Shown here piece after piece: positions 3,058 to 34,760 of a DNA stretch of 38,550 nt. Origin of the DNA: a virus; IMG/VR virus record IMGVR_UViG_3300020462_000019, positions 1-38,550 of that record. The stretch is one strand, 5' to 3'. The notes below the pieces were generated by a model. That model searched no databases. It had not been told where the DNA came from and was given only the letters and a program-made list of their open reading frames with translations. Every line of letters starts with the position of its first letter. The stretch's first letter is position 1. Both the position numbers and the translations under genes were made by a program.

Positions 3058-4346
3058 TGTCAGATAATTCAAACAATGTAGCTGGTGCAGGCAATATTAA
3101 AGATTTTACCATTACCTCTAATGAGGGTGGTAAAACAGCTGATTTGTCTGCTGTTGTTGTAGATTACAGATACTATGAGAGTGTCTTATCCAATTCATAT
3201 ACAGCATCAGCAGTTATTATCGAAACTGGTAATGGTGGAGAAAGGAAAGGAACACTTGATGCACTTCCCATCAGAGGTGGTGAGGAATCAACAATATCCA
3301 TAACAGATAATAATGATCATACTTTGGAAGTTCCACTTTTTGTGAATAGAATTAGGGGTGGAGCTCCTGGAACACAGAAGGATATGTATGTTCTTGACTT
3401 CTCTTCAGAGGAGTATTTGACAAATCAACAAAAGAGAGTAACCAAGAGATATGAAGGTAAGATTTCAGATCATGTGAATTCTATCCTGAGTGAAGTGTTA
3501 GAAGTAAGTGGCAATGTTGATGTTGATGAAACTGCTTTTGATTATAACTTTGTTGGAAATCAAAAGAAACCTTTCTATACTCTCACATGGTTAGCTGCTA
3601 GAGCTGTTCCAGATGAAGGTGTTGGTGATGCAGCTGGATTTCTTTTCTTTCAAACCAGAGATGGGATCCACTTCAAATCTATTGATAAAATCTTTGGAGA
3701 AGAAGTATCAGATAAGAAATTTATATACAACAACACAGGAACTGAACCAGCGGAGAAAGATTCAAATATTATCTCATATACCATTGAGAGTGATACTGAA
3801 CTTCATCAGAATATGGTATTAGGAACATATAACAATAGAAGGATATATTTTGATATGTATGCCATGAACTATTATTTTCAAGATTATTCTATTGAAGAAC
3901 AAAAGGGTGGTGCTAAGAATGCTGCTAGGGAATCTGAGTTTGTGTCAAAGAAATTCACAGATGTTCCAACAAGAATAATGACAAATATATTTGATATTGG
4001 TACTAATCCAAAAGGCAAGGGAAATGAACAGTTGGACAATTGGAAACAAGATCCAGAGAATCCAAACTATAAAGCAGAAGAAACAATGTCTCAAACCATT
4101 ATGAGATATAACCAACTCTTCACTATTAAAACAAATATTATTATTCCTGGTGATTTCTCAATCAAGGCTGGTGATTTGGTTGAGTGTGATTTTCCTGAAC
4201 TAGAAGAGGGAAATCCCAAAAATACAAACAAAGAAACTGGTGGTATATACATGGTGGCCCATGTTTGCCATAAAATGACACCTAATGAATGTCTCACAAG
4301 TTTGGGTTTGGTTCGTGATTCTTACGGTAAGAAAGGAGGTTTCTAA
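3057..4346 (+). CDS. Baseplate hub protein, gp27-like
   Basis: The product has 429 residues, close to T4 gp27 (391). The N-terminus is a beta-rich domain, and FYTLTWLAARAVP about one third in is typical of the hub fold shared by gp27, gpD and VgrG N-termini. Near the C-terminus GDFSIKAGDLVECDFPELE resembles the final beta-barrel of such proteins. The start overlaps the previous stop (TAATG), and the next gene, a gp5-like OB-fold protein, overlaps this stop the same way. In T4, a gp27 trimer holds the gp5 trimer at the baseplate centre, so adjacency to a gp5-like gene supports the call. The assignment rests on length, fold-like motifs and neighbours rather than strong sequence identity. Confidence 0.6.
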   Translation: MSDNSNNVAGAGNIKDFTITSNEGGKTADLSAVVVDYRYYESVLSNSYTASAVIIETGNGGERKGTLDALPIRGGEESTISITDNNDHTLEVPLFVNRIRGGAPGTQKDMYVLDFSSEEYLTNQQKRVTKRYEGKISDHVNSILSEVLEVSGNVDVDETAFDYNFVGNQKKPFYTLTWLAARAVPDEGVGDAAGFLFFQTRDGIHFKSIDKIFGEEVSDKKFIYNNTGTEPAEKDSNIISYTIESDTELHQNMVLGTYNNRRIYFDMYAMNYYFQDYSIEEQKGGAKNAARESEFVSKKFTDVPTRIMTNIFDIGTNPKGKGNEQLDNWKQDPENPNYKAEETMSQTIMRYNQLFTIKTNIIIPGDFSIKAGDLVECDFPELEEGNPKNTNKETGGIYMVAHVCHKMTPNECLTSLGLVRDSYGKKGGF

Positions 4347-7192
4347 TGATTGAACAAGGATTATTTAAGAATCACCAAATAGGTAAGGATGGATTCAATT
4401 GGTGGATCGGTCAGATTGCACCTGAAGAATCGTGGAAAGAAAACATTCCTGGTGTTCCTGTAGAAACTAACGAAGACGAATCCTATAAGGGATTTGGTGA
4501 AAGGTGCCGTGTGCGTATCATTGGTGCCCAAACACATGAAAAGAGTGAGGTTTCTGATGAGGAACTTCCATGGGCAACTGTGATGTATCCTGTCACTGCT
4601 GGTGGCGGTGGTAGAGGATCATACCAATCAATGAATTTGGTTGGTGGTAACTTTGTATTTGGTTTCTACATTGATGGTGATGATGCCCAACAACCAGTTA
4701 TCATGGGTGCCATTGGGTATAATGATTATCAGGAGGTGATGAAACAAGCTGGTGATACTGGGTTTATTCCTCACAGTGGATGGAATCAAGAGCAAGAAGG
4801 TAATGAGGTTCCATATTATAGTATAAAAGAAGGTGGCTCTGGGATGACAGCAGCCCAAGAGTTTGCTTTTGGTGCTAAAAACAATGATCTGATTATTGAG
4901 AGTACTCAGGGTTCCAATTCTCTCAAAGAGATGTCTTCCAAGAAGATGGAAGAGAAGGGTAAGATAGAAGAACCCATGGCCAAAAATGAGGATTGTGAAC
5001 CAGTCCCAACAAACAGAATCCAGAAACAAATGCAGAATGTGATGCATGAGATGGAATCTGTTCAGAGATCTGCTTATGATATTAGAGAGGCAATCTCATC
5101 TGGAACTTCTGATATTCAAGGAAAGATTGCTGGATTACAAGCCAAGTTGGCAAAGTTTGTATCTTCTATTATGAAGTCAATCTTCTCACAGATTGAGAAG
5201 ACTGTATTGAAAGCACTGAATGATGCTGTTAAGCCAACACAGAATCTTCTCATGCCAAATGAGAGACCAATACTCAAAACAGCAATGGATACAGCAAATG
5301 ATCTGATTGCTTGTTTGTTCAAGAAGATCTTTGGTCAGTTACTTGATATGGTAATGGGTTTTCTTTCTGATGCTCTTGGTACTGGGGGAAGTGGTGGTAG
5401 TGGTGAAGGTCAGAAGGTTATCAATGTTCCTACTTGTTATGTGAATGATTTTATTGGTAGTGCTATTGGATCAGTTAGTAATGAGATTGACAGTGAACTC
5501 AGTGGTATCACATCAAATTTAAATGGTATTCTAGATGGTATGTCTGCAGCTTCATCAGCTGCTGGTGGATTATCTTCTGCGGCTGATGGAGCAGCTGGAG
5601 CACTTGGATCAATTGGTGATATGGGTGGGTTTGATATTGGTAGTATCATACAAGATCTGTTCTCTTTCTTAGGATGTGAAGAAGAAAACAAGTGTCCAAC
5701 AGTAGACACTTGGAGTATGTGGTACGGTATGGATAGTGGTAACTCCAATTCAATGTCAAATATGGCATCCATTGGTTCCAAATCCAAATCCAAATCAAGT
5801 AAGAATAAGAATGTTGGTGATGGATTCAAGGATATGTCTTTTGATGACATATACAGTGAGAGTACTTGTGGAAATAATAGAAGCGGCAATAATGGTGGAG
5901 GAAGTGGAAACAATGGTGGTGGAGGAAGTGGAAACAATGGAGGAGGTAGTACAGGTGGTAACAATAATAATATAGGGAACAGTACACCTGGATATGATTG
6001 GGGTAATGGTGGTACTATTGATCCAATCACATGTGGGCCACCACTTGTTAGAATTACTGGTGGATGGAATGCAAAAGGAAATGCTATTGTATCTCAATCA
6101 GGTAAGGTATTATCAGTTGATATTACAGATCTGGGTGTCAATTATGATAGTTACAAATCAAGAATTATTGTTATAGATCAGTGTGGTAAAGGAAACAATG
6201 CTGTCCTAATTCCTATCATTGATGAAGTGACTGTAACATCTAATGATGATGGAACATTGAACCTTAATCATGGTGGAATGAATACCACGATGCGGGGAGC
6301 CAGGATGTCATCTGGTAATCTTGGATATGAGGACTCAAGAGGGACACTAATACCTATCCTTAATAAGGATGGTGCACCAGTTAAGGAAGGTGATGTAACT
6401 AATAGTGTTGTTGATGGTATAATTATAAAACCTGGTACTGGATACTTACCATCACCTGATGGATCTCTTGGTGGAGATAAAAGAGAGTGGGCAAGACCTG
6501 ATGATACTATTATTAGAAAGCCTGGTGGTGGGTGGTTAACACCTGTTCCTCCTGGTAATGATATTGATCTTGAACCTGGTGATACTGTTACTACACCTGG
6601 ATCATCAAATCCTGTTTATGCAGAACCTGGAGAACAGTTAATCAATCCTGGTGTACCAACAATAATTGAAAACACTTCAACCATTACTGCACCACCAAGA
6701 AGGCCTGATGCCGGTATTTCTGCAGAATATCCAACAAATAGTGAAGGTGCATATCCAGTTGTTCTGTATCTTTGTGAAATCGTTATCCTTAATCCTGGAT
6801 TCAATTATTCACCTAATGATGAGATTGTAATATCACCAAACAGTGGTGCTGTGGCAGTTCCTAAGTTTGATAAACAGGGAAGAGTATTATCCATCAAAGT
6901 AACAAAAGGTGGTGAAGGATTCACTGATATTCCATATATCTACATCAAATCACAAACTGGTTATAATGCAAAACTAGTTCCTAAGTTCTGTATAGATAGA
7001 GTATCAGATGCATTGAGTGAACCAAAATCTCAAGATAAGTTGGTTACTGTTATTGATTGTGTGAGTAGATCACCAGTTGGATATCTCAATGGAAAACCAT
7101 ACTACGGACCTTATCATGAACATAAAGGTGTAAGAATGGTCGGATACAAACACACTTCCGCAAAACATGCAACACTTACAGCTAGACCATGA
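4346..7192 (+). CDS. Baseplate hub/spike protein with gp5-like N-terminal OB domain
   Basis: The product has 948 residues. Residues 1-150 look like the OB-fold of T4 gp5: an N-terminal FNWWIGQIAPEE, then CRVRIIGAQ, LPWATVMYPVT and GNFVFGFYIDGDDAQQPVIMG, in the same order as in gp5. No lysozyme domain follows. There is instead a helical section (about 220-320), a Gly/Ser/Ala-rich section, and a Gly/Asn/Ser linker (about 508-545) encoded by short direct DNA repeats near 5880-5960. Beta-rich repeats then carry GTGYLPSP and NPGFNYSPNDEI type motifs. The C-terminus YYGPYHEHKGVRMVG is a tail often seen on phage structural proteins. The TAATG start overlap couples it to the gp27-like gene, and the ATGA at the end couples it to the spike-like gene. 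The lytic function seems to have moved to the amidase protein upstream. Confidence 0.68.
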   Translation: MIEQGLFKNHQIGKDGFNWWIGQIAPEESWKENIPGVPVETNEDESYKGFGERCRVRIIGAQTHEKSEVSDEELPWATVMYPVTAGGGGRGSYQSMNLVGGNFVFGFYIDGDDAQQPVIMGAIGYNDYQEVMKQAGDTGFIPHSGWNQEQEGNEVPYYSIKEGGSGMTAAQEFAFGAKNNDLIIESTQGSNSLKEMSSKKMEEKGKIEEPMAKNEDCEPVPTNRIQKQMQNVMHEMESVQRSAYDIREAISSGTSDIQGKIAGLQAKLAKFVSSIMKSIFSQIEKTVLKALNDAVKPTQNLLMPNERPILKTAMDTANDLIACLFKKIFGQLLDMVMGFLSDALGTGGSGGSGEGQKVINVPTCYVNDFIGSAIGSVSNEIDSELSGITSNLNGILDGMSAASSAAGGLSSAADGAAGALGSIGDMGGFDIGSIIQDLFSFLGCEEENKCPTVDTWSMWYGMDSGNSNSMSNMASIGSKSKSKSSKNKNVGDGFKDMSFDDIYSESTCGNNRSGNNGGGSGNNGGGGSGNNGGGSTGGNNNNIGNSTPGYDWGNGGTIDPITCGPPLVRITGGWNAKGNAIVSQSGKVLSVDITDLGVNYDSYKSRIIVIDQCGKGNNAVLIPIIDEVTVTSNDDGTLNLNHGGMNTTMRGARMSSGNLGYEDSRGTLIPILNKDGAPVKEGDVTNSVVDGIIIKPGTGYLPSPDGSLGGDKREWARPDDTIIRKPGGGWLTPVPPGNDIDLEPGDTVTTPGSSNPVYAEPGEQLINPGVPTIIENTSTITAPPRRPDAGISAEYPTNSEGAYPVVLYLCEIVILNPGFNYSPNDEIVISPNSGAVAVPKFDKQGRVLSIKVTKGGEGFTDIPYIYIKSQTGYNAKLVPKFCIDRVSDALSEPKSQDKLVTVIDCVSRSPVGYLNGKPYYGPYHEHKGVRMVGYKHTSAKHATLTARP

Positions 7193-7818
7193 CAGAAAGT
7201 AAAGATAAGAAAAAGAATTATCATACAGTACGATATGGTACTGCAGAAGGTGAGATAAAGTTTGGCCATCTCCACAGAGATGGTGAACTTTCTGGAGCAA
7301 TGTTGAGGAATGGTAGTGCATCCTCAAAGGGTAATCATTATATTACTCTTGAAAGTGGTGGTGATAAAGGAAGAGAGAATGGTACATTTTGTTCTTCACC
7401 TGGATCTTTTCAGGTAAAGGCTGGTTATGACCTAGAGAATGAAAGTAGTAGTGAGGAAAATAAGCACATTGGCATCTACATGGATGCTGTCAACGGTGAC
7501 ATTGTAATTCGTGCCCCATCAGGACGTATTAGAATGGAGGCAGTTGATATTGATATCACTGCTACTGGTCAAGATAATGAACATGGAACTGTGTTTATTA
7601 CTGGTAACGAGAAGGTTATTGTAAAGGCACAAACAATTGATGTAAATTCTAAAGTTAGTTCAAAGTTCTTTTCTGAGAAAACTGTAGAAGTAGTTGGAAA
7701 TGGTTTGTTAAATATATACGGTGGATTAGTAGATTGTGCTGATGGTGCAACTTCCGTAATAGGTTCTAAGATGCCATCAAAAAATGAAGAACAACATAAA
7801 TCGAGGCTTGGAGTATGA
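7189..7818 (+). CDS. Beta-helical spike-like protein (gp5 C-terminal/VgrG-like repeats)
   Basis: The product has 209 residues. The second half runs through short alternating-hydrophobic repeats such as NGDIVIRAPSGRIRMEA, VFITGNEKVIVKAQ and LLNIYGGLVDC. This periodicity is characteristic of the triple-stranded beta-helix needle at the end of T4 gp5 and VgrG proteins. The first half begins with a basic segment and contains GEIKFGHLHRDGE and ITLESGGDKG, also beta-rich. It overlaps the gp5-like gene at its start and the next gene at its end, both by ATGA. The likely role is part of the membrane-piercing spike, encoded here as a separate polypeptide. No PAAR tip motif was recognised. Confidence 0.55.
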   Translation: MTESKDKKKNYHTVRYGTAEGEIKFGHLHRDGELSGAMLRNGSASSKGNHYITLESGGDKGRENGTFCSSPGSFQVKAGYDLENESSSEENKHIGIYMDAVNGDIVIRAPSGRIRMEAVDIDITATGQDNEHGTVFITGNEKVIVKAQTIDVNSKVSSKFFSEKTVEVVGNGLLNIYGGLVDCADGATSVIGSKMPSKNEEQHKSRLGV

Positions 7819-8507
7819 AGTTTCCTGACGTATTTGTAGGTAAAAGGTTTTTTGTAGGACTCGGTAGACCCGAGATTCTAGGTAGAGGACCAAAAGAAGT
7901 TCGTGGTTCTGCATACATTGAAGGACCAGAGATTGTAGGTAATCCAGAGCTATTCTCTCCAAAGGCTATTGCTAAAGGAGAAGCCGGACCTTCATTTGAA
8001 CTTGGTGCTTCGATGGCATCTCAGAATACCAATACTGAGATGATTCCCCCACCATTCTATGCACTCTTTGTTAGGATGTATGCAAGGATTGCATCTTTCC
8101 TCAAAGTAGATACACTTTTGTGTGTTGATAGAATCAAAACTAGGATCATCTATTCTGAGGTGATCATGGCAAAGAATAAGAACTTTGTCATTCCTCATCC
8201 TTCAGAAGAAGGTAAGAATCTAGTATACTCTTGTTTGGAAGGACCAGAGAATGGTGTTTATGTTAGAGGAACACTAAGAAACAACAATACAATTGAACTT
8301 CCACCTTATTGGAAAGATCTGGTTCATAATGATTCTATTACAGTATCATTGACTCCTGTTGGTTGTCATCAAGATTTGATTGTAACCAGAGTCAGTAACG
8401 AAGTGGTTGTAGTTCAGACACAATCACCATACCCTATCCAATGTTTCTACCATGTTTATGGTGAAAGAAAGGATATCAGAAAATTAGAAGTAGAGGTTGA
8501 CGCATAA
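7815..8507 (+). CDS. Virion structural protein with CLEGPE-type beta domain
   Basis: The product has 230 residues. The N-terminal third includes RGSAYIEGPEIVGNPELF, a pattern seen in baseplate-associated phage proteins. The C-terminal half begins KNFVIPHPSEEGKNLVYS and continues CLEGPENGVYVRG, then LPPYWKDLV and VSLTPVG. This domain recurs in phage fibre and baseplate proteins, often next to S74 chaperone modules. The neighbouring gene at 8507 carries the same domain with different details, so the two appear to be paralogues. The start overlaps the previous stop (ATGA) and the end overlaps the next start (TAATG). Inferred to be a baseplate or fibre-attachment component; no enzymatic motif was seen. 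Confidence 0.6.
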   Translation: MKFPDVFVGKRFFVGLGRPEILGRGPKEVRGSAYIEGPEIVGNPELFSPKAIAKGEAGPSFELGASMASQNTNTEMIPPPFYALFVRMYARIASFLKVDTLLCVDRIKTRIIYSEVIMAKNKNFVIPHPSEEGKNLVYSCLEGPENGVYVRGTLRNNNTIELPPYWKDLVHNDSITVSLTPVGCHQDLIVTRVSNEVVVVQTQSPYPIQCFYHVYGERKDIRKLEVEVDA

Positions 8508-9310
8508 TGCCAGCATTCGTTTTTAAGCAGTTTGGAACATTTATTGGTCCACAATTCTTAGATAAAACATACAGTTATGATATAGTATCCAAAGAAGCAT
8601 TTTGGCATACAGATATCCCCATCGATACTTCATTCAAGAAGACCGATTTGGGGTATGTTGGATATTCCGCTCCTGGTGTATATGCAGGTCATCACTTTGA
8701 TGGTATTGCCACTGTAAGGTTGACACTTGATTCATCAATGGGTCATATTCCACTTTACTTTCATCAGGTTAAACAATCCTTTATCAATGGTAATGTGGTT
8801 GCCAATGGAGTTCATCTCCAAAATGGTACTGCTATTGTCAATGGTAAGCTTACCACTACAAGTTCTGTATCAGGTAGTTATAAGGGTCCAATCAATAAGC
8901 AGGGCTGGAAAGGTTTTGATATTGAGCACCCTAAGAAGGAAGGAAAGAGAATAAGACACATTTGTGTAGAAGGACCAGAAGCAGCAATCTATATTCGTGG
9001 TAGATGTAAGGATACTAATGTTATCAATCTTCCTGAATACTGGGATGGGTTGGTAGATATTGATCAGTTGAGTGTAAACCTTACTCCATTTGGTGTACCT
9101 CAAAACCTATATGTTGAAGATGTTAAGTGGGGTAAACAGGTTATCATTAAGAATTCAGATGGTGGACCTGTTAATTGTTACTATCAGATCTGGGCACCAA
9201 GACTTGGTGATTTAGTTGTTGAATATGATGGAGAGAGTGCTGCCGATTATCCAGCCAATCAAGATGAACATTCTATTTGTGGATATCACTACGATAGGAG
9301 GGAATCATGA
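8507..9310 (+). CDS. Virion structural protein, paralogue of the preceding gene
   Basis: The product has 267 residues. Residues from about 134 read GFDIEHPKKEGKRIRHI, then CVEGPEAAIYIRG, LPEYWDGLVD and LSVNLTPFG, aligning segment by segment with the C-terminal half of the preceding protein. The N-terminal half differs (YVGYSAPGVYAGHHFDG) and probably gives a distinct attachment surface. The start is coupled by TAATG and the end by ATGA. Role inferred as baseplate or fibre-attachment protein. The His/Tyr-rich C-terminus (ICGYHYDRRES) is not explained. Confidence 0.58.
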   Translation: MPAFVFKQFGTFIGPQFLDKTYSYDIVSKEAFWHTDIPIDTSFKKTDLGYVGYSAPGVYAGHHFDGIATVRLTLDSSMGHIPLYFHQVKQSFINGNVVANGVHLQNGTAIVNGKLTTTSSVSGSYKGPINKQGWKGFDIEHPKKEGKRIRHICVEGPEAAIYIRGRCKDTNVINLPEYWDGLVDIDQLSVNLTPFGVPQNLYVEDVKWGKQVIIKNSDGGPVNCYYQIWAPRLGDLVVEYDGESAADYPANQDEHSICGYHYDRRES

Positions 9311-10374
9311 CAATTGCAGTAGGACATACAGATGATATATCATCTGGATTTGGTACATTTGGATTACCCAATAGTTATTTTGGTGGTATTTCAGGAAATC
9401 TAGAAGCTCAAATTGTTGCTTTTAGTACATATACCAATGATTCAAAAGACATATATCAAGGAAGATATGATGCAATCTTAGAGCCATTAGAAGCAATTGA
9501 TGATAAGATTGTGACTGATTACTTGGTTCCAATCAATACAAAGAAGCAACAGATTCAAACATTGGGACAATCCTCTGTTTGGGTAGCTAACCCACAAACA
9601 TATTCATCATCGACTGCAGCTCTGAGTGCTATAGAAACAATCTATCAGGAATCCAATACTGACAACGACAATCAGGCATGTACTGTTATTGGTTTTACCA
9701 CTTTTCCTGGTTTTGGTGGTACTGCTGGAACGGTTGTTACACAAGGAACTACTGATCTAGAAGGAGAAGTTACAATTACAGCCAGAGGTACAGTATCCTT
9801 TACTGGATCTCCAATGGTTCTTCAGGATGTTGAAGGAACATTCTCATCTCTATACCCACTTACTGTTGGTGTCACTTCAATTGGAGCTCCAACTGCAATT
9901 TCATATACTGGATTGACCAACATCAGAGAAGATGTTGTTATGGTTACTCATTTTACAAAAATGGAACCACCTGACAATAGTGTGGATAATCCTTATGCAA
10001 ATGATCAATACCCACTTCTTGATGCAAACACCAATGGTGTGGGAGCTGCTCAAACATTCTTCCCAAATGCAATTGATACTATAGCCGGAGGAAACCCTAC
10101 TATCTCTGCCGCACAGAACTATGGTAAAGTATACACTAGTTCCTCAGCAACAAACAACAGTCAGATTGATACATTAGATTCTGAGATTGTTACTTTAAGA
10201 GCTGGTATTACTACTTATAATGATGGTGCCAATGTTCTGAAAGAACTCAAAACCTCATACGCTTTGGCTATATGGTCATACGAAAGAGGCAACAAACTGA
10301 ATGATGAGGAACTTGCGAAGTATCAAAACGCTATAAACATATTGAGAGACCCATCTATTGGTGGACCATATTAA
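9307..10374 (+). CDS. Structural protein of unknown function, last gene of baseplate operon
   Basis: The product has 355 residues and no recognised domain. It contains helical, charged stretches (LEPLEAIDDKIVTDYLVP and a C-terminal NKLNDEELAKYQNAINIL) flanking a beta-rich Thr/Gly/Val central part (TARGTVSFTGSPM). The start overlaps the previous stop by ATGA, so it is translated with the baseplate genes. A GC palindrome follows immediately. Position at the end of the hub operon suggests a tail component, but nothing in the sequence gives a specific role. Confidence 0.55.
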   Translation: MTIAVGHTDDISSGFGTFGLPNSYFGGISGNLEAQIVAFSTYTNDSKDIYQGRYDAILEPLEAIDDKIVTDYLVPINTKKQQIQTLGQSSVWVANPQTYSSSTAALSAIETIYQESNTDNDNQACTVIGFTTFPGFGGTAGTVVTQGTTDLEGEVTITARGTVSFTGSPMVLQDVEGTFSSLYPLTVGVTSIGAPTAISYTGLTNIREDVVMVTHFTKMEPPDNSVDNPYANDQYPLLDANTNGVGAAQTFFPNAIDTIAGGNPTISAAQNYGKVYTSSSATNNSQIDTLDSEIVTLRAGITTYNDGANVLKELKTSYALAIWSYERGNKLNDEELAKYQNAINILRDPSIGGPY

Positions 10375-24066: not shown

Positions 24067-25125
24067 ATGAGTAATTTAAGTCAATTTTTTGGTTCAGGAG
24101 CAAATGAAACTCCTGGTGGAATATCCATCCCAGCTGATGGTGTTCCTGTTGAGATTTTGGGTGTAGCAGGTTCTGGAGGCCGTGGCGGCTTCTTGTGTTG
24201 TGGTCCAGCATATCCTGGAGGCCAGATCTTTCCTTGTCATCCCCTGGCCGGTGAGGGTGGTGCTGGAGCACTCTTCCACGCCACTGATTATCATATTCAG
24301 CCAGGTTGTACCGTTCCCATTACCATTGGAGGAGGTGGAAGTAACTCCGCTTGTCCTACCGGTTCTGGAGGTCAGGGAGGAGCTACCGGGTTCTGGTACC
24401 CAATACGACCACTATATGTAAAAGGTGGTGGTGGCGGTGGTGCATGTTCCGCTTGTACTCTTCCTCCCGCACCTGATGGAACCTGTAGGTACTACGCACA
24501 AGGATGTCCAGGTGGTAACGGAGGAGGTTCGGCTAATTTCGGTTACGCTTACGGTGCATGTCCAGACTATCCTGGAGGTGATGGGTGTTATTGGGAATCA
24601 CTGAACGAAGTTGTGAGTTCTTCGCAGTATACAAGTGGATACCTACCTTCACCATACCCATTTGGTCCTGTGACTCCATATAGTTATGGTTATGGACTGG
24701 CTGTAAAGAGGTCAGATGCAAAACTTGAACAGCAGCCTTGGGGTGTTAAAGGTGGGTTCCCTGGAAACTATTCCAGATCAATCTGCAGCACTATCACGAA
24801 CCGAGGTTATGGTGGAAAGTCTGGAGGAAATGCAACTTACCTATCAGGGACCAGTGTGGGCGGTAGTGCAGCGTGCGTTGATGTTTTAGCTACCGGTTAC
24901 CATTCTAGTATTGCAGGGCCTGGAACACATTACAACACAACTGGTACATTTGGTGCAACACCAGTAAATTACTGTAGTGCAGGGGTTCCGGGTGGTTTGA
25001 TTATCTCATGGCCAACTGCTTTTGGATCAGCTCCATCTTTCCCTGGAGCAAGTGATATTTCTCCACAAACAATTGGAAAGTATACTTATTGTTTCACCAG
25101 TTCTGGTTCAATTACACTACCATAA
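24067..25125 (+). CDS. Glycine- and cysteine-rich putative receptor-binding adhesin
   Basis: The product has 352 residues. It opens with GISIPADGVPVEILGVAGSG and then carries dense glycine blocks (VPITIGGGGSN, YVKGGGGGGACSAC, GNGGGSANFGY) plus about 17 cysteines, for example FLCCGP, ACSACTLP and YGACPDYPGG. Glycine blocks interspersed with variable loops recall the gp38-type adhesins of T-even phages, which sit on fibre tips and set host range. The cysteines are unusual for a virion protein and may bind metal or form disulfides outside the cell. The DNA here is richer in GC than its surroundings, hinting at exchange. It is tightly linked to the small protein upstream. An adhesin role is inferred from composition and position, not from a family match. 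Confidence 0.6.
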   Translation: MSNLSQFFGSGANETPGGISIPADGVPVEILGVAGSGGRGGFLCCGPAYPGGQIFPCHPLAGEGGAGALFHATDYHIQPGCTVPITIGGGGSNSACPTGSGGQGGATGFWYPIRPLYVKGGGGGGACSACTLPPAPDGTCRYYAQGCPGGNGGGSANFGYAYGACPDYPGGDGCYWESLNEVVSSSQYTSGYLPSPYPFGPVTPYSYGYGLAVKRSDAKLEQQPWGVKGGFPGNYSRSICSTITNRGYGGKSGGNATYLSGTSVGGSAACVDVLATGYHSSIAGPGTHYNTTGTFGATPVNYCSAGVPGGLIISWPTAFGSAPSFPGASDISPQTIGKYTYCFTSSGSITLP

Positions 25126-25639: not shown

Positions 25640-25645
25640 CTTGAG

Positions 25646-25676
25646 GACCGTACTGAATTCAGTATGGTCTTTTTTT
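25646..25676 (+). terminator. Rho-independent terminator of the fibre operon
   Basis: A 10-bp stem (25646-25655 with 25660-25669, one G-T wobble) around the loop AATT is followed by seven T. It begins 6 bases after the last fibre-locus gene and directly precedes a sigma70-type promoter. Confidence 0.9.
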
Positions 25677-25677
25677 C

Positions 25678-25706
25678 TTGACTTATTAGAATTGTTCCTA
25701 TATAAT
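25678..25706 (+). promoter_or_regulatory. Sigma70-type promoter of the modification cassette
   Basis: TTGACT (25678-25683) and TATAAT (25701-25706) are separated by exactly 17 bases, starting 2 bases after the terminator T-run. A second TATAAT at 25717-25722 lies near the expected start point. This allows host polymerase to transcribe the next five genes independently of late genes. Confidence 0.75.
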
Positions 25707-25730
25707 GTATCTGAGATATAATATGATTCA

Positions 25731-26363
25731 ATGGCAATGCAAAGTGTGTATTACGACACTCTTCTTCCTGAAGATGTTGTAAACTTGATGGAGAAAGATC
25801 TCCATTTTTTTGATAGTAGTTTAGAGAATTCTAGAGTTGGTGGTGGTAATGGTGGCGTTGTAGAAGAAAATGTCAGAGACGCCAAAAACACTTGGATTCC
25901 TGATACTCATTGGTCTGCTGGATTTATCTGGCATTATGTGTTGAAGGCAAATAGAGAAAACTTCCTGTATGATATTGAGAATATTCAGGGAAGTTCGATG
26001 CAATATACTGTCTATGGTGAAGGACAGTTCTATAATTGGCATGAAGATCTGGGTCTCAGTGCTTTCTATAAACCAGATGTTCTTCCTGGTCAGTGTGATC
26101 CACAGTTAAATGCAACAGATTTTATCATTAGGAATACAGAAAGAATTCGTAAATTGTCATTCTCTCTTCAACTCTCCGATGGTGATGAGTATGAGGGTGG
26201 CCAGTTCCAACTTCTGGGTGAGAGTGGTAAAATTTATACTGCACCTAAGAAAAGAGGAACACTTATCCTGTTTGATGCAAGGGCAAAACATAGAGTTAGA
26301 AAGGTGAAAACCGGAACTCGCAAGTCTATTGTTGGTTGGATTGTTGGTCCACGTTGGAAGTGA
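25731..26363 (+). CDS. 2-oxoglutarate/Fe(II)-dependent oxygenase (PKHD/P4H type)
   Basis: The product has 210 residues. The Fe ligands are visible as H104 and D106 in YNWHEDLG and H187 in AKHRVRKV; R197 in TGTRKSIVGW is placed to bind 2-oxoglutarate. These enzymes couple 2-oxoglutarate decarboxylation to hydroxylation of proteins or small molecules. Length and the GGQFQL and GTLILFDARAKHRV pattern fit the prolyl-hydroxylase-like group common in cyanophages. ATG 25731 lies just downstream of the sigma70 promoter with only a weak ribosome site; ATG 25737 is an alternative start. It is first in a cassette with another oxygenase, a carbamoyltransferase and a glycosyltransferase. Substrate unknown. 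Confidence 0.82.
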   Translation: MAMQSVYYDTLLPEDVVNLMEKDLHFFDSSLENSRVGGGNGGVVEENVRDAKNTWIPDTHWSAGFIWHYVLKANRENFLYDIENIQGSSMQYTVYGEGQFYNWHEDLGLSAFYKPDVLPGQCDPQLNATDFIIRNTERIRKLSFSLQLSDGDEYEGGQFQLLGESGKIYTAPKKRGTLILFDARAKHRVRKVKTGTRKSIVGWIVGPRWK

Positions 26364-26371
26364 GGTAAACT

Positions 26372-27103
26372 ATGTGGTTTTTTAAGAAGAAAGAAACACT
26401 CCAATACCCGGACTGCCCGGACTGGGATCTACAGGAGAAGATGTTATTTGGAAGCTCTAAAACCAAGAATGAGGAGTTTGATAAGAATGGGTACTTGATT
26501 GTAAGAAACATGTGGGATCCAAAGGATCTACAAGAAGAAATTGACTACGATAATGGTCATTTCATGTATAATAATTTTGGTAAAGTTCGTCGTACTGATG
26601 AAACTCAGGTTCTTGGTTCAAAGGCAAGACATTCCTATCCTCCTTATAAGTTCTATCATTCTCAGTTTAGGAGAAAGATGGAGAAGATTATTGGCAGTGA
26701 GTTGTTTAACACCTATCATTATGATAGAGTGTATTACAAAGGTCAGGAGCTCATAAGACATATGGATAGAGCTGTATGTGAAATCTCACTAACATTTCAA
26801 ATTGGATCTAACTGTAAAGAACCATGGCCCATATGGATTAAAACTCCTGATACCTATGATGAAAACGGCAATATCATCAAGAAGGGTGAAGATGTTCCCA
26901 TCAATCTAAATGATGGAGATGCAGTCATCTACAAAGGTTGCGAAAGGCCTCATTGGAGAGGACCACTGAAGTCAAGGTATAGTGTGATTCAAAGAGGTAT
27001 TAGAAAACTTCTTAAGAAGAAAGATGATACATACCATCATCAAGGATTTTTTCATTATGTATTGGCAGATGGTCATAGATGTTCATCTGCAGGAGACAAT
27101 TAA
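26372..27103 (+). CDS. Second 2OG-Fe(II) oxygenase-like protein
   Basis: The product has 243 residues with GAGGT upstream of ATG 26372. YYKGQELIRHMDRAVCEIS places H130 and D132 as the HxD iron motif; H194 in RPHWRG is the likely distal ligand, and R202 in KSRYSVIQRG could bind the co-substrate. NTYHYDRVYY and WPIWIKTPD are typical of a cyanophage/bacterial oxygenase subgroup. It starts 8 bases after the first oxygenase and is followed at 2 bases by the carbamoyltransferase. Likely to hydroxylate an unknown metabolite, lipid or glycan component. Confidence 0.75.
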   Translation: MWFFKKKETLQYPDCPDWDLQEKMLFGSSKTKNEEFDKNGYLIVRNMWDPKDLQEEIDYDNGHFMYNNFGKVRRTDETQVLGSKARHSYPPYKFYHSQFRRKMEKIIGSELFNTYHYDRVYYKGQELIRHMDRAVCEISLTFQIGSNCKEPWPIWIKTPDTYDENGNIIKKGEDVPINLNDGDAVIYKGCERPHWRGPLKSRYSVIQRGIRKLLKKKDDTYHHQGFFHYVLADGHRCSSAGDN

Positions 27104-27105
27104 TT

Positions 27106-28797
27106 ATGATAACAATTGGAATTTATGGGTCATTTGATTGGGAGGCACACAAATCATATAACGAAAGTGGAGAATCCACATGGTGTCATGATGCTGGTGC
27201 TACACTTTTTATCGATGGCAAACATGTTTGTAGCATTTCAGAGGAGAGGCTAACAAGAAGGAAGCATGATGGCAACTATCCCATCAATTCCATTCAATAT
27301 TGTCTCTCTGCTGGCAATATCACTGCAGAAGATGTGGACCTTGTTTGTGTCCCATCAATGTGTGTCAGTATCTTCTATAAGAAGTTGTATGGTGGTGTCA
27401 TCCATAACATCATCAAAGAAGAGTTCCCTAATGCAGAGTTTAAGTTAGTATCACATCATTTGAGTCATGCTGCTGCCTCAGTGTTTTCATCTGACTTCAA
27501 TGAGGGTTCATTCCTGACATTGGATGGTGCAGGTTCAATTGCATTTGGATATGATCTTCAGAGAACATTCCAAGCAGAAACCAATACTATTGGATACTTT
27601 AACAAAGAGAAAGGTATCTTTCGTATCTTTAATGGTATCCCTGGTTCTAATGATTTTGGTGGATACTATCATAATCTGTCTCATCACATCTATTGTGAAA
27701 AGATTGGAAAACATATTGATGCTTATGATGAAAAGTATCGTGAGACCTGGGATGGTAAGATCATGGGTTTATCTGCCTATGGTAGTGGACTAGAGTTTAA
27801 AGATCATCACAGACAGTATCAAATGTCTAAGGATCTTTACTATGATAATGTTCCTTATGTCACGTGGACTCAAGATTTCCAGAACTCTTTCAGATTCACT
27901 AATGCTGATGAGAAGGCATATATCATTCAAAAGAACTTTGAACTTGCACTTCTTGAGTATACAACAGACCTGAAGAATGAAGGATACCTTGAAGAGAATG
28001 TATGTCTCTCTGGTGGTTCATTCCTGAATGTTCTTGGTAACAGTGTCCTGAAAGAGTCAGGACTCTTCAATGATATTCACGTTCCACCATGTCCTAATGA
28101 TGTTGGTCTTCACTTTGGTGCAGCCTGTTATGGTCAGTTCAAGAAGAATGAACCTATTGAACTTCCTGAGAACATTGCACTTCTTGGTAAAGAATATACT
28201 GAAGAGGAGATTCTAGAGTCGTTGATAGAAGGACAGGTAAAATATGAAAGGTATGATGACTTTGAGGAGTTGTGTGAATTCACTGCATTGAAACTGAGTG
28301 GTGATAGTATTGTGGCATGGTTCCAAGGTCGTTCAGAGTTTGGTCCTAGGGCACTTGGTTCAAGGTCACTTCTGATGCATCCTGGTCCTGCTGAGAATAA
28401 AGATATTATCAACAGTCGTATCAAACATCGTGAGTATTGGAGACCATTTGCGGGTATCATTCTCGAAGAACACTTGACAGATTATTTCAATGAGGATTAC
28501 AATTCTCCCTACATGTTATACTCTCTTACAGTCAAAGACAGTAGAAAGGAAGAACTTGGAGCAATTACTCACAAAGATGATACATGTAGGATTCAGACAG
28601 TTAACAACAAAATGAATGAGAGGATGACAACTCTTCTCAATAAATTCAAAGAGGTCACAGGTATTCCTGCAATTCTAAATACCTCATTCAATGATAATGG
28701 TGAACCCATTATCGAAAGTCCAGAAGATGCAATCCGTTCATTCAAAAATATGGACATTGATTATCTTGTGATCGGTAATTTTGTGGTTAGAAAATGA
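27106..28797 (+). CDS. NodU/CmcH/TobZ-family carbamoyltransferase
   Basis: The product has 563 residues from ATG 27106, with AGGAG at 27091-27095; an upstream ATG at 27079 lies inside the preceding gene and is less likely. The N-terminal Kae1-like domain starts IGIYGSFDWEAH, has CHDAGATLFIDG and the metal-binding HHLSHAAAS (about residues 116-124), then LTLDGAGS. The C-terminal YrdC-like domain shows AWFQGRSEFGPRALGSRSLL (about 405-425), EYWRPFAGIILEE, GIPAILNTSFNDNGEPI and a final ESPEDAIRSF. Length matches the family. These enzymes transfer a carbamoyl group from carbamoyl phosphate via carbamoyl-AMP onto hydroxyls of sugars or antibiotics. A glycosyltransferase-like gene overlaps its stop (ATGA), favouring a sugar substrate. 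Confidence 0.9.
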   Translation: MITIGIYGSFDWEAHKSYNESGESTWCHDAGATLFIDGKHVCSISEERLTRRKHDGNYPINSIQYCLSAGNITAEDVDLVCVPSMCVSIFYKKLYGGVIHNIIKEEFPNAEFKLVSHHLSHAAASVFSSDFNEGSFLTLDGAGSIAFGYDLQRTFQAETNTIGYFNKEKGIFRIFNGIPGSNDFGGYYHNLSHHIYCEKIGKHIDAYDEKYRETWDGKIMGLSAYGSGLEFKDHHRQYQMSKDLYYDNVPYVTWTQDFQNSFRFTNADEKAYIIQKNFELALLEYTTDLKNEGYLEENVCLSGGSFLNVLGNSVLKESGLFNDIHVPPCPNDVGLHFGAACYGQFKKNEPIELPENIALLGKEYTEEEILESLIEGQVKYERYDDFEELCEFTALKLSGDSIVAWFQGRSEFGPRALGSRSLLMHPGPAENKDIINSRIKHREYWRPFAGIILEEHLTDYFNEDYNSPYMLYSLTVKDSRKEELGAITHKDDTCRIQTVNNKMNERMTTLLNKFKEVTGIPAILNTSFNDNGEPIIESPEDAIRSFKNMDIDYLVIGNFVVRK

Positions 28798-29828
28798 AAA
28801 CTATTATTAATGTTGATGGTGGATTGGGTCGTGTTATTACTGCAATTCCTGCACTTCTAAAGTATGGTAAGAACCACCCAGAAGAAGATTGGTATGTGAT
28901 GGTTCCTGGTTGGGATTTTATGTTATGGGGCATTGAAGAACTACAACAAAGGACATTCAACCCAGAAACCAAAGGTATGTTTGAAAACTACTACTGGGAT
29001 GCTGATAAAGTTATTGCACCAGAACCATACAAACTCCCTGCTTTTTATCGTAATGAGATCTCACTGGCAGAAGCATTCGATGAACTAATCAATGGAACTA
29101 CTGATCACGGTGATCTTCCAGATATGTCCCTAGGTCTCACGATTGATGAGATACTTGGTGCAAGATCATTTATCAATCAAGCCATTCAGGGAAAAGATGG
29201 TGATTGCAATACTTCTGGATGTGAGCCACCCAAACCTATTAAAAACCACAAGAAAGTTGTTGTATTTCAACCATTTGGTAGCACTGCTCAACATTCAGAG
29301 CTGGGTATCTATGATAGGAGTATGAGGTCTATCAATCAGAACTTTGCTAATAAGATTGCAAAAGAACTATCAAAGGATTATATTGTTATCAATATGAATG
29401 GACGTGAAGGTTTTAGTGCTTTTACTGATGTAATCAACTTTGGCACTGATCCTGATCTCAGAACATGGGCAGCAATCATTCAAGAGGCAGATTACTTCAT
29501 TGGTTGTGATAGTTGTGGACAACATATGGCAAAAGCTGTTGGAACATCAGCATCTGTCTATATTGGTGGAACACATGAGGTAAATGTTTCCTATCCTGAT
29601 ACTTTCCACATCATCAAGAATGATGCAAAGTATTATCCTAACCCTATGAGAGTTTCTTCGATTAACTCTACTCTTGCGGATAAACTAAACGAAAAGAGAG
29701 CAGTGTTTAGTGATAGTGAGATGAAGAAACACATCAAAGAAATCATTAAACGTATTGAAGGTGGAAAGAAAGTCACTGATGCAGTCACAGTCGAGTCAAC
29801 AGAAGTAAAGAGTGGTAAGGGTTTTTGA
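28794..29828 (+). CDS. GT9-like (heptosyltransferase-type) glycosyltransferase
   Basis: The product has 344 residues. The N-terminus MKTIINVDGGLGRVITAIPA is the glycine-rich opening of ADP-heptose:LPS heptosyltransferases. The second domain has KVVVFQPFGS and FIGCDSCGQHMAKAVGT, matching the GT9 nucleotide-sugar site where DSGxxH is usual; here the order is DSCGQH. Family members add heptose-like sugars to LPS core. ATGA overlap with the carbamoyltransferase and TGATG overlap with the next gene make one coupled unit. Possible targets are host surface glycan, a cell-wall precursor or a virion protein. Donor and acceptor are not deducible. Confidence 0.72.
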   Translation: MKTIINVDGGLGRVITAIPALLKYGKNHPEEDWYVMVPGWDFMLWGIEELQQRTFNPETKGMFENYYWDADKVIAPEPYKLPAFYRNEISLAEAFDELINGTTDHGDLPDMSLGLTIDEILGARSFINQAIQGKDGDCNTSGCEPPKPIKNHKKVVVFQPFGSTAQHSELGIYDRSMRSINQNFANKIAKELSKDYIVINMNGREGFSAFTDVINFGTDPDLRTWAAIIQEADYFIGCDSCGQHMAKAVGTSASVYIGGTHEVNVSYPDTFHIIKNDAKYYPNPMRVSSINSTLADKLNEKRAVFSDSEMKKHIKEIIKRIEGGKKVTDAVTVESTEVKSGKGF

Positions 29829-30187
29829 TGAATTCACCATTAGTACCAATCTCTATCGGAGAGTTGTTAGATAAGATAACAATCCTTCAAATCAAATCAG
29901 AACATACCAGTAATGAGTATGTAAAAAAAGAACTCCAAGATTTGACAAGGATTGCTCAAGACCTTGGAGTTTATGATAACGAACACATCGACGACTTACT
30001 TAAAGTTAATCGTAAGTTGTGGAACATCGAAGACAAACTTCGTGAACATGAGAATACTTGGGTATTTGATGATGAGTTTATACGACTTGCAAGAAGTGTC
30101 TATATCACCAATGATAACAGGTCAAGAATAAAGAAAAGAATAAATGATGAAACATCATCAGAATATTCAGAAGTGAAAGTGTACTAA
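29828..30187 (+). CDS. DUF6165-like small protein
   Basis: The product has 119 residues from ATG 29828, which shares a base with the upstream TGA. ISIGELLDKITILQIKSE is the hallmark N-terminus of a small helical family (DUF6165, as I recall it) found beside glycosyltransferase genes. The rest is charged and helical (VNRKLWNIEDKLREHE). It closes the modification cassette and is followed by a terminator-like hairpin. Function of the family is not known to me; genetic linkage suggests it assists the glycosyltransferase. Confidence 0.65.
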   Translation: MNSPLVPISIGELLDKITILQIKSEHTSNEYVKKELQDLTRIAQDLGVYDNEHIDDLLKVNRKLWNIEDKLREHENTWVFDDEFIRLARSVYITNDNRSRIKKRINDETSSEYSEVKVY

Positions 30188-30212
30188 CCACTTCTTAAAC
30201 TGGCACACATGG

Positions 30213-30240
30213 CCTCACAGGATCCCCTGTGGGGTTTATT
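30213..30240 (+). terminator. Terminator-like hairpin after the modification cassette
   Basis: A 9-bp stem (30213-30221 with 30226-30234, one T-G wobble) with loop ATCC is followed by TTTATT. The short T-run makes it weaker than the terminator at 25646. Confidence 0.65.
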
Positions 30241-30268: not shown

Positions 30269-30373
30269 ATGAAGTACTCAGGACTAGAGAAACTTATCTT
30301 CCTATCTTCTACAGTATGGTTACTTCATTGGGGAGTAAGATTAACACAGGTGAGTATCAATGCTTTATATTGA
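30269..30373 (+). CDS. Possible 34-residue single-span membrane peptide
   Basis: ATG 30269 opens a 34-codon frame ending at TGA 30371-30373, overlapping the next start by 14 bases. The centre LIFLSSTVWLLHWGV is hydrophobic enough for one membrane helix, with Lys/Arg on both sides. The ribosome site is weak. Small membrane peptides are common in cyanophages, but this may be a chance ORF. Confidence 0.35.
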   Translation: MKYSGLEKLIFLSSTVWLLHWGVRLTQVSINALY

Positions 30374-34484: not shown

Positions 34485-34760
34485 ATGAAGCGAATTGCCA
34501 AAAAGAACGTCAGTATTTCACTCAAGGGTGGTAGGGACAATTTTAAGACAATTAAATTGGTTGAAGGTAAACCAGTTGTAGAATCAAAACTTCTTGAGAT
34601 GTCTAGAAGACAAATTAATGAGTATACAGAAGAAGTTTATGAAGGTGCAGATCTCTCATTCTTGACACCAGAAGATAAGAAGTATTATAATAAGAACAAG
34701 AAACACCCAGACATGCAGTGGGCACTTGATATGGTTTATGAAGATAGAACGACCAATTAA
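34485..34760 (+). CDS. Small basic protein, function unknown
   Basis: The product has 91 residues starting directly after the terminator T-run, with no ribosome site. The N-terminus is basic (MKRIAKKNVSISLKGG) and the C-terminal half contains FLTPEDKKYYNKNKKHPDMQ. A TATAAT at 34453-34458, before the terminator, might start a message that begins inside the hairpin. An internal Met at about position 39 is a possible alternative start. The next gene overlaps its end by 23 bases. No family recognised. Confidence 0.55.
   Translation: MKRIAKKNVSISLKGGRDNFKTIKLVEGKPVVESKLLEMSRRQINEYTEEVYEGADLSFLTPEDKKYYNKNKKHPDMQWALDMVYEDRTTN

Follow-up and report, generated by a model that had tools for sequence, protein, structure and literature searches.

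A block of five tightly coupled genes lying against the tail fiber genes of a T4-like cyanophage raises the question of what pathway such genes encode and what molecule they modify. The genes, here named p1 to p5, are carried by IMG/VR record IMGVR_UViG_3300020462_000019, a 38,550-base fragment analyzed over its whole length (the window) that runs from a baseplate hub (4346-7192) through large tail fiber genes into a region of small genes. The activity that best accounts for them is glycosyl transfer combined with O-carbamoylation of a glycan, which we consider probable, and we tentatively favor the phage's own tail fibers and adhesins over the host envelope as the acceptor. Glycan modification had been suggested from the letters of the DNA alone, in what we call the sequence-only reading, which left the target open among a host glycan, the fibers, and a metabolite; glycan carbamoylation remains the best-supported activity.

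A five-gene cassette

The five genes are codirectional and coupled, spanning 25731-30187:

25731-26363, + strand: p1, 2-oxoglutarate (2OG)-Fe(II) oxygenase, PKHD/PiuC-like
26372-27103, + strand: p2, 2OG-Fe(II) oxygenase fold, named "ferrochelatase" in PHROGs and RefSeq
27106-28797, + strand: p3, predicted O-carbamoyltransferase of the NodU/TobZ family
28794-29828, + strand: p4, predicted GT-B glycosyltransferase of GT9 (heptosyltransferase) fold, T4-GC 302/phrog_8954 family
29828-30187, + strand: p5, DUF6165 protein that probably works with GT9 enzymes

Neighboring genes nearly abut or overlap by 1 to 4 bases. The reading frame of p3 opens at 27079, and a start at 27106 is preferred, with a Shine-Dalgarno-like CAGGAG at 27090 and homologues that start there too, so that p2 and p3 do not overlap. 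The p3/p4 overlap is 4 bases. For p5, the frame opens with TTG at 29825, and ATG 29828, which overlaps the p4 stop by one base, is preferred. Apart from these small start corrections, the five coupled open reading frames are those of the sequence-only reading, whose family calls (two oxygenases, a carbamoyltransferase, a GT9-like protein, and a DUF6165-like protein) agree with the domains, folds, and motifs described below.

Predicted activities

Both domains of p3 are complete, with Pfam matches to Carbam_trans_N (PF02543, 2.9e-30) and Carbam_trans_C (PF16861, 2.5e-65), and the protein aligns with the solved enzymes TobZ, GdmN, and the novobiocin carbamoyltransferase NovN. The conserved H, D, K, and R motifs associated with metal, carbamoyl phosphate, and ATP are kept, and H28, H117, H121, D140, R415, R442, R446, and N525 are among the residues that do not vary across 19 phage homologues. 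At the positions of TobZ W408, G421, and R423, p3 has W, G, and R (WFQGRSEFGPRALGSRS), compared to I, C, and T in a phage 5-hydroxymethylcytosine (5hmC) carbamoyltransferase (IVRGNMEFGPRALCNTT). By sequence, p3 is a NodU/TobZ-type O-carbamoyltransferase predicted to act on a sugar or natural product, in line with the full NodU/CmcH-type enzyme first proposed. It shares HxxxH and RALGxRS-type motifs, as well as the W/G/R residues and both domains, with TobZ, GdmN, and NovN; those enzymes act on antibiotics, whereas p3 belongs to a phage-only clade with glycan partners. Departures from the two-domain layout occur elsewhere: in L027 (5846-7557) two adjacent genes share the carbamoyltransferase between them, the one for the C-terminal domain coming first, L008 has an N-terminal-only match, and S-SSM7 carries a short "nol" gene.

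The glycosyltransferase assignment of p4 comes mainly from structure. Its score against PF01075 (GT9) lies below the Pfam threshold (13.1 bits versus a cut-off of 22; 0.059), so we label it GT9-fold rather than PF01075. An NCBIfam heptosyltransferase III match was found at 2.7e-5, and in a Foldseek search with the p4 model (predicted local distance difference test [pLDDT], 81), the top 30 PDB matches were all GT9 enzymes, including WaaC, TibC, WaaF, and a Veillonella GT9 (E, 1e-9 to 2e-7; template modeling score for TibC, 0.56-0.61). The p4 profile also matched bacterial GT9s found beside DUF6165 genes (profile-profile P, 3e-8). We conclude that p4 is a GT-B glycosyltransferase of GT9 fold, its activity being predicted from the model. 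It shares with WaaC, WaaF, and TibC the GT-B fold and a C-terminal D-S-x-x-x-H motif region, although identity is 10-13%. TibC, a protein heptosyltransferase, has an N-terminal barrel and a four-cysteine iron finger (PMC4358343); p4 has neither, and its identification as an autotransporter heptosyltransferase (BAHT/TibC) was rejected. The p4 profile found no match in five host genomes, a negative that carries little weight.

Pfam places p5 in DUF6165 (2.3e-11). At 43 of 80 bacterial DUF6165 loci, the immediate neighbor is a GT9 or TPR-GT9 gene, just as p4 is the neighbor of p5. The family is widespread and uncharacterized, tracking with GT9 and TPR-GT9 genes in bacteria that include Prochlorococcus and SAR11 (L048-L127), and we found no literature on DUF6165.

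Of the two oxygenases, p1 matches PF13640 (2.7e-13) and has an invariant HxD...H...R motif (H104/D106/H187, R197) in the homologue alignment. No Pfam match was found for p2, and in particular no chelatase domain; the structures matched by its AlphaFold model (pLDDT, 89) are those of prolyl hydroxylases and further 2OG enzymes, and its HxD...H motif is invariant (H130/D132/H194). On fold and motif p2 is a modeled 2OG-Fe(II) oxygenase, and we reject the name "ferrochelatase," which PHROGs and many RefSeq cyanophage records apply to the same oxygenase family (phrog_2954/T4-GC 615). Because sequence searches of the PDB with the p4 and p2 profiles returned nothing useful, both folds are predictions. 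The tested catalytic residues of p1, p2, and p3 are intact, where inactive sites would have counted against the sequence-only reading.

Conservation and recurrent partners

The order p1-p2-p3-p4-p5 is kept in six other IMG/VR contigs (L009, L010, L011, L018, L020, and L021). L012 lacks p5 but keeps the other four, a single additional gene separating p1 from p2, and partial sets occur as p3-p4-p5 in L014-L017 and as p1-p2-p4-p5 in L030 and L032. The cultured cyanophages P-RSM4 and S-TIM4 combine p1-p2 with a carbamoyltransferase. Across dereplicated viral loci (46 for p4 and 73 for the carbamoyltransferase), a carbamoyltransferase lies within 5 kb of p4 at 27/46 and directly adjacent at 21/46, DUF6165 accompanies p4 at 28/46, and a sulfotransferase does so at 27/46; conversely, 27 of the 73 carbamoyltransferase loci have p4 adjacent. 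The p4 partners fall in two carbamoyltransferase clades (tree support, 100/100 and 100/99), and both gene orders occur, with p4 first in S-CAM1, Sf-FS3, and AG-345-L05. If no pathway were shared, pairing with two clades in both orders would be difficult to account for. These families thus co-occur in other viral contigs, rather than meeting in the window alone.

The closest published parallel is the cyanophage "LPS" (lipopolysaccharide) cluster of P-SSM2 and S-SSM7 (T4-GC 302-308), where the p4 homologue T4-GC 302 adjoins the Nol-like carbamoyltransferase T4-GC 303 and the pair sits just after tail fiber genes, as the window cassette does. Unlike that cassette, the cluster includes heptose-type nucleotide-sugar genes, and no p1-p2 pair or DUF6165 gene is annotated or was found beside the pair. 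In S-CAM1 and Sf-FS3, the carbamoyltransferase of the corresponding pair comes from another lineage. In P-SSM2, S-CAM1, and Sf-FS3, the annotations of the genes after the pair read heptose kinase/adenylyltransferase, phosphoheptose isomerase, and epimerase. For S-CAM1, Pfam confirmed the cytidylyltransferase, PfkB kinase, cupin, and epimerase, and gave no match for the isomerase. In L011, a heptose-type nucleotide-sugar set lies 4-6 kb upstream of a full cassette. Given these nearby genes in relatives and the adjacency of DUF6165 and GT9 genes in bacteria, a heptose-type donor and a partnership of p4 with p5 are reasonable inferences.

Related fiber-proximal islands in L024-L039 (e.g., L026 3-4199 and L027) encode two families of sulfotransferases, GT2/GT25/GT32-like transferases, numerous 2OG oxygenases, and adhesin-like proteins that recur and end in RAFRCVTY, which suggests a larger, swappable decoration island. 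In the literature available to us, we found no paper on sulfotransferases of phage tail fibers.

Promoters and flanking features

The cassette is bounded as follows:

24067-25125, + strand: glycine-rich fiber-type protein flanking the cassette and outside it, candidate acceptor
25643-25672, + strand: intrinsic terminator closing the upstream fiber genes, 13-pair stem and U-run, fold of -22 kcal/mol
25678-25706, + strand: cassette sigma70-type promoter, TTGACT-17-TATAAT, 11/12
30211-30236, + strand: hairpin 3' of the cassette, without a U-run, putative terminator

The strong upstream terminator and the near-consensus sigma70 promoter of the sequence-only reading are both present. Its downstream terminator-like hairpin is real as a hairpin, lacks a U-run, and is a putative terminator. 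Sites of 11/12 quality arise at a rate of 0.1 per shuffled 7 kb, and sites of at least 11/12 stand directly before 6 of 9 p1 copies across 8 contigs (0.08 expected; P, ~2e-10), with equivalent 11-12/12 sites in L009 (twice), L010, L011, and L012. From the shuffle rate and this recurrence, the promoter at 25678 is not a chance match. Fiber genes beside the cassette carry NATAAATA motifs, usually 25-40 bases before the start; this sequence is the published cyanophage late promoter (PMC2984593). The division into early and late promoters is not strict, as p1 of L018 is preceded by a late motif, the second p1 copy of L009 by both promoter types, and those of L020 and L021 by neither in strong form.

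The two p1 copies of L009 belong to a tandem duplicate of the p1-p2 pair (7159-9991), each with its own near-perfect sigma70 promoter. Two further near-perfect sigma70-like sites lie on the + strand of the window, one at 28474-28503 inside the carbamoyltransferase gene and upstream of p4, with a similar site at 11378 in L009, and the other, a 12/12 match, at 34662-34691 in the small-gene region. Beyond the hairpin, at 30269-30373 (+), lies a conserved, unannotated micro-open reading frame of ~34 amino acids with one hydrophobic helix (MKYSGLEKLIFLSSTVWLLHWGVRLTQ...). In L020 a homologue likewise follows the cassette, in L162-L164 homologues stand at the equivalent spot behind related islands, and L009 and L306 have further ones.

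What the cassette may modify

In the pathway that we infer, as to the donor sugar, the order of steps, what p5 does, and most of all the acceptor, p4 would attach a sugar to the acceptor with the help of p5, taking it from a nucleotide donor that is probably of heptose type. The p3 enzyme would then O-carbamoylate a hydroxyl of the glycan, using carbamoyl phosphate and ATP, while p1 and p2 would hydroxylate the acceptor, on peptide side chains or on the sugar, with 2-oxoglutarate and O2. The acceptor may be the tail fiber and adhesin set encoded around the cassette, in which case progeny would carry modified fibers. Location points in this direction: the enzymes lie inside or directly after fiber genes in the window and in most relatives, in two genome neighborhoods. 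S-TIM4 and S-CAM8 carry them on the side of the helicase (gp41), S-CAM1 and Sf-FS3 beside neck genes. Fiber modules flank the cassette on both sides in L009-L011, Gly_rich_2 proteins adjoin carbamoyltransferases in S-TIM4 and S-CAM8, and no flippase, polymerase, or lipid-linked transferase was recognized in the cassettes.

Several observations weigh against the fibers as acceptor or against the pathway as drawn. Most cassette promoters belong to the early, host-sigma70 type and those of the flanking fiber genes are late-type, a difference that suits an early, host-directed role. The p4 family lacks the N-terminal beta-barrel extension and four conserved cysteines of TibC. No heptose genes are present in the window, itself a genome fragment. 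The p1-p2 pair is often found without p3-p5, and alone in many cultured cyanophages. Finally, a close relative of p3 in the complete S-SSM7 genome (41%) lies between uvsW and gp55, away from fibers.

The same enzymology could instead be directed early in infection at a host surface glycan, such as the lipid A core, O-antigen, or capsule, and the change would shut out other phages, guard against grazers, or keep progeny from adhering to debris. We regard this as the main alternative, somewhat less probable than the fibers. A host-surface role, including the idea of superinfection exclusion, has already been proposed for cyanophage LPS clusters (PMC2984593, PMC9602691), and a natural precedent for such a target is WapO, which putatively carbamoylates heptose II of the Pseudomonas LPS core and comes from a locus region that also has heptosyltransferases (PMC8005017). 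WapO is likened to p3 by description, not sequence, and belongs to a chromosomal LPS core locus with no oxygenases or DUF6165 reported. Early-type sigma70 promoters precede the cassette in 5 of 8 contigs, in contrast to the late motifs before fiber genes; host-family genomes encode carbamoyltransferases (46/121) and GT9 enzymes (41/121), with one host carbamoyltransferase near TPR-GT9 genes; and a cytosolic GT9 enzyme and carbamoyltransferase could act on the core ahead of its export with no need of additional membrane proteins. Against a host target stand the persistent linkage to fiber genes in two genome neighborhoods and the presence of two or more oxygenases, for which LPS offers no obvious role. 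The LPS of marine Synechococcus, moreover, is reported to lack heptose.

Two other explanations are much less probable than either glycan target. Base-modification systems can combine an oxygenase with a glycosyltransferase, and the cassette might make carbamoylated (and glycosylated) DNA bases. This target, absent from the candidates of the sequence-only reading, has a published precedent in the phage 5hmC carbamoyltransferase, an enzyme of the same family as p3 that makes 5-carbamoyloxymethylcytosine in vitro (PMC8670742). That enzyme differs from p3 at the specificity residues and is distant from it in the tree, on a very long branch whose exact position we did not use as evidence. The thymidylate synthase/dCMP hydroxymethylase family (PF00303) was found in 0 of 9 relatives' records, including the complete S-SSM7, S-CAM1, S-SM2, S-TIM4, and Sf-FS3, so these relatives have no such partner enzyme; the window, for its part, covers only a fragment of its genome. 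By best match p1 is PKHD-like and p2 is P4H-like, not Tet/JBP, and in the same study the carbamoyltransferases of unmodified contigs adjoin glycosyltransferases (PMC8670742). The lack of thymidylate synthase-family enzymes in relatives and the TobZ-type residues of p3 make DNA modification very improbable. A metabolic role, whether small-molecule carbamoylation, nucleotide supply, or a drawdown of 2-oxoglutarate that alters host nitrogen signaling, is improbable as well, if marginally less so. Cyanophage carbamoyltransferases have been described as pyrimidine biosynthesis genes and 2OG oxygenases as 2-oxoglutarate modulators (PMC9146016, PMC10436341, PMC3037559), but the nucleotide reading assumes an aspartate carbamoyltransferase, while p3 is of the NodU/TobZ family, and metabolism accounts neither for the repeated company of GT9 and DUF6165 genes nor for the location among fiber genes.

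Implications

It has long been known that cyanophages carry carbamoyltransferases and LPS clusters, and their abundant 2OG oxygenases are likewise published (PMC3037559, PMC2984593). The GT9-like gene T4-GC 302 was already on record beside a carbamoyltransferase in P-SSM2 and S-SSM7; the view that a phage glycan carbamoylation pathway would be new was therefore too strong. Several findings are new as far as the openly accessible literature shows: that all five genes form one cassette with a conserved promoter of its own, that T4-GC 302/phrog_8954 has the GT9 fold, that DUF6165 is linked to GT9, that the name of p2 needs correcting, and that p4 pairs repeatedly with carbamoyltransferases of two lineages.

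If the proposed pathway is correct, genes now filed under "hypothetical," "ferrochelatase," "nucleotide metabolism," and "LPS" would become parts of one testable pathway, and unannotated genes would gain functions, that of a GT9-fold transferase for p4/T4-GC 302 and that of its partner for p5/DUF6165. For host-phage recognition in the ocean, the question becomes whether carbamoylated and sulfated sugars are placed on phage adhesins or on the host surface. In its fullest form, which we consider doubtful, the proposal is that cyanophages hydroxylate, heptosylate, and O-carbamoylate their own fiber adhesins, and that relatives also sulfate them, using a cassette that travels with the fiber genes. 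Were that the case, phage receptor-binding proteins would bear a combinatorial, swappable glycan code, and carbamoylated virion glycans would be a new modification.

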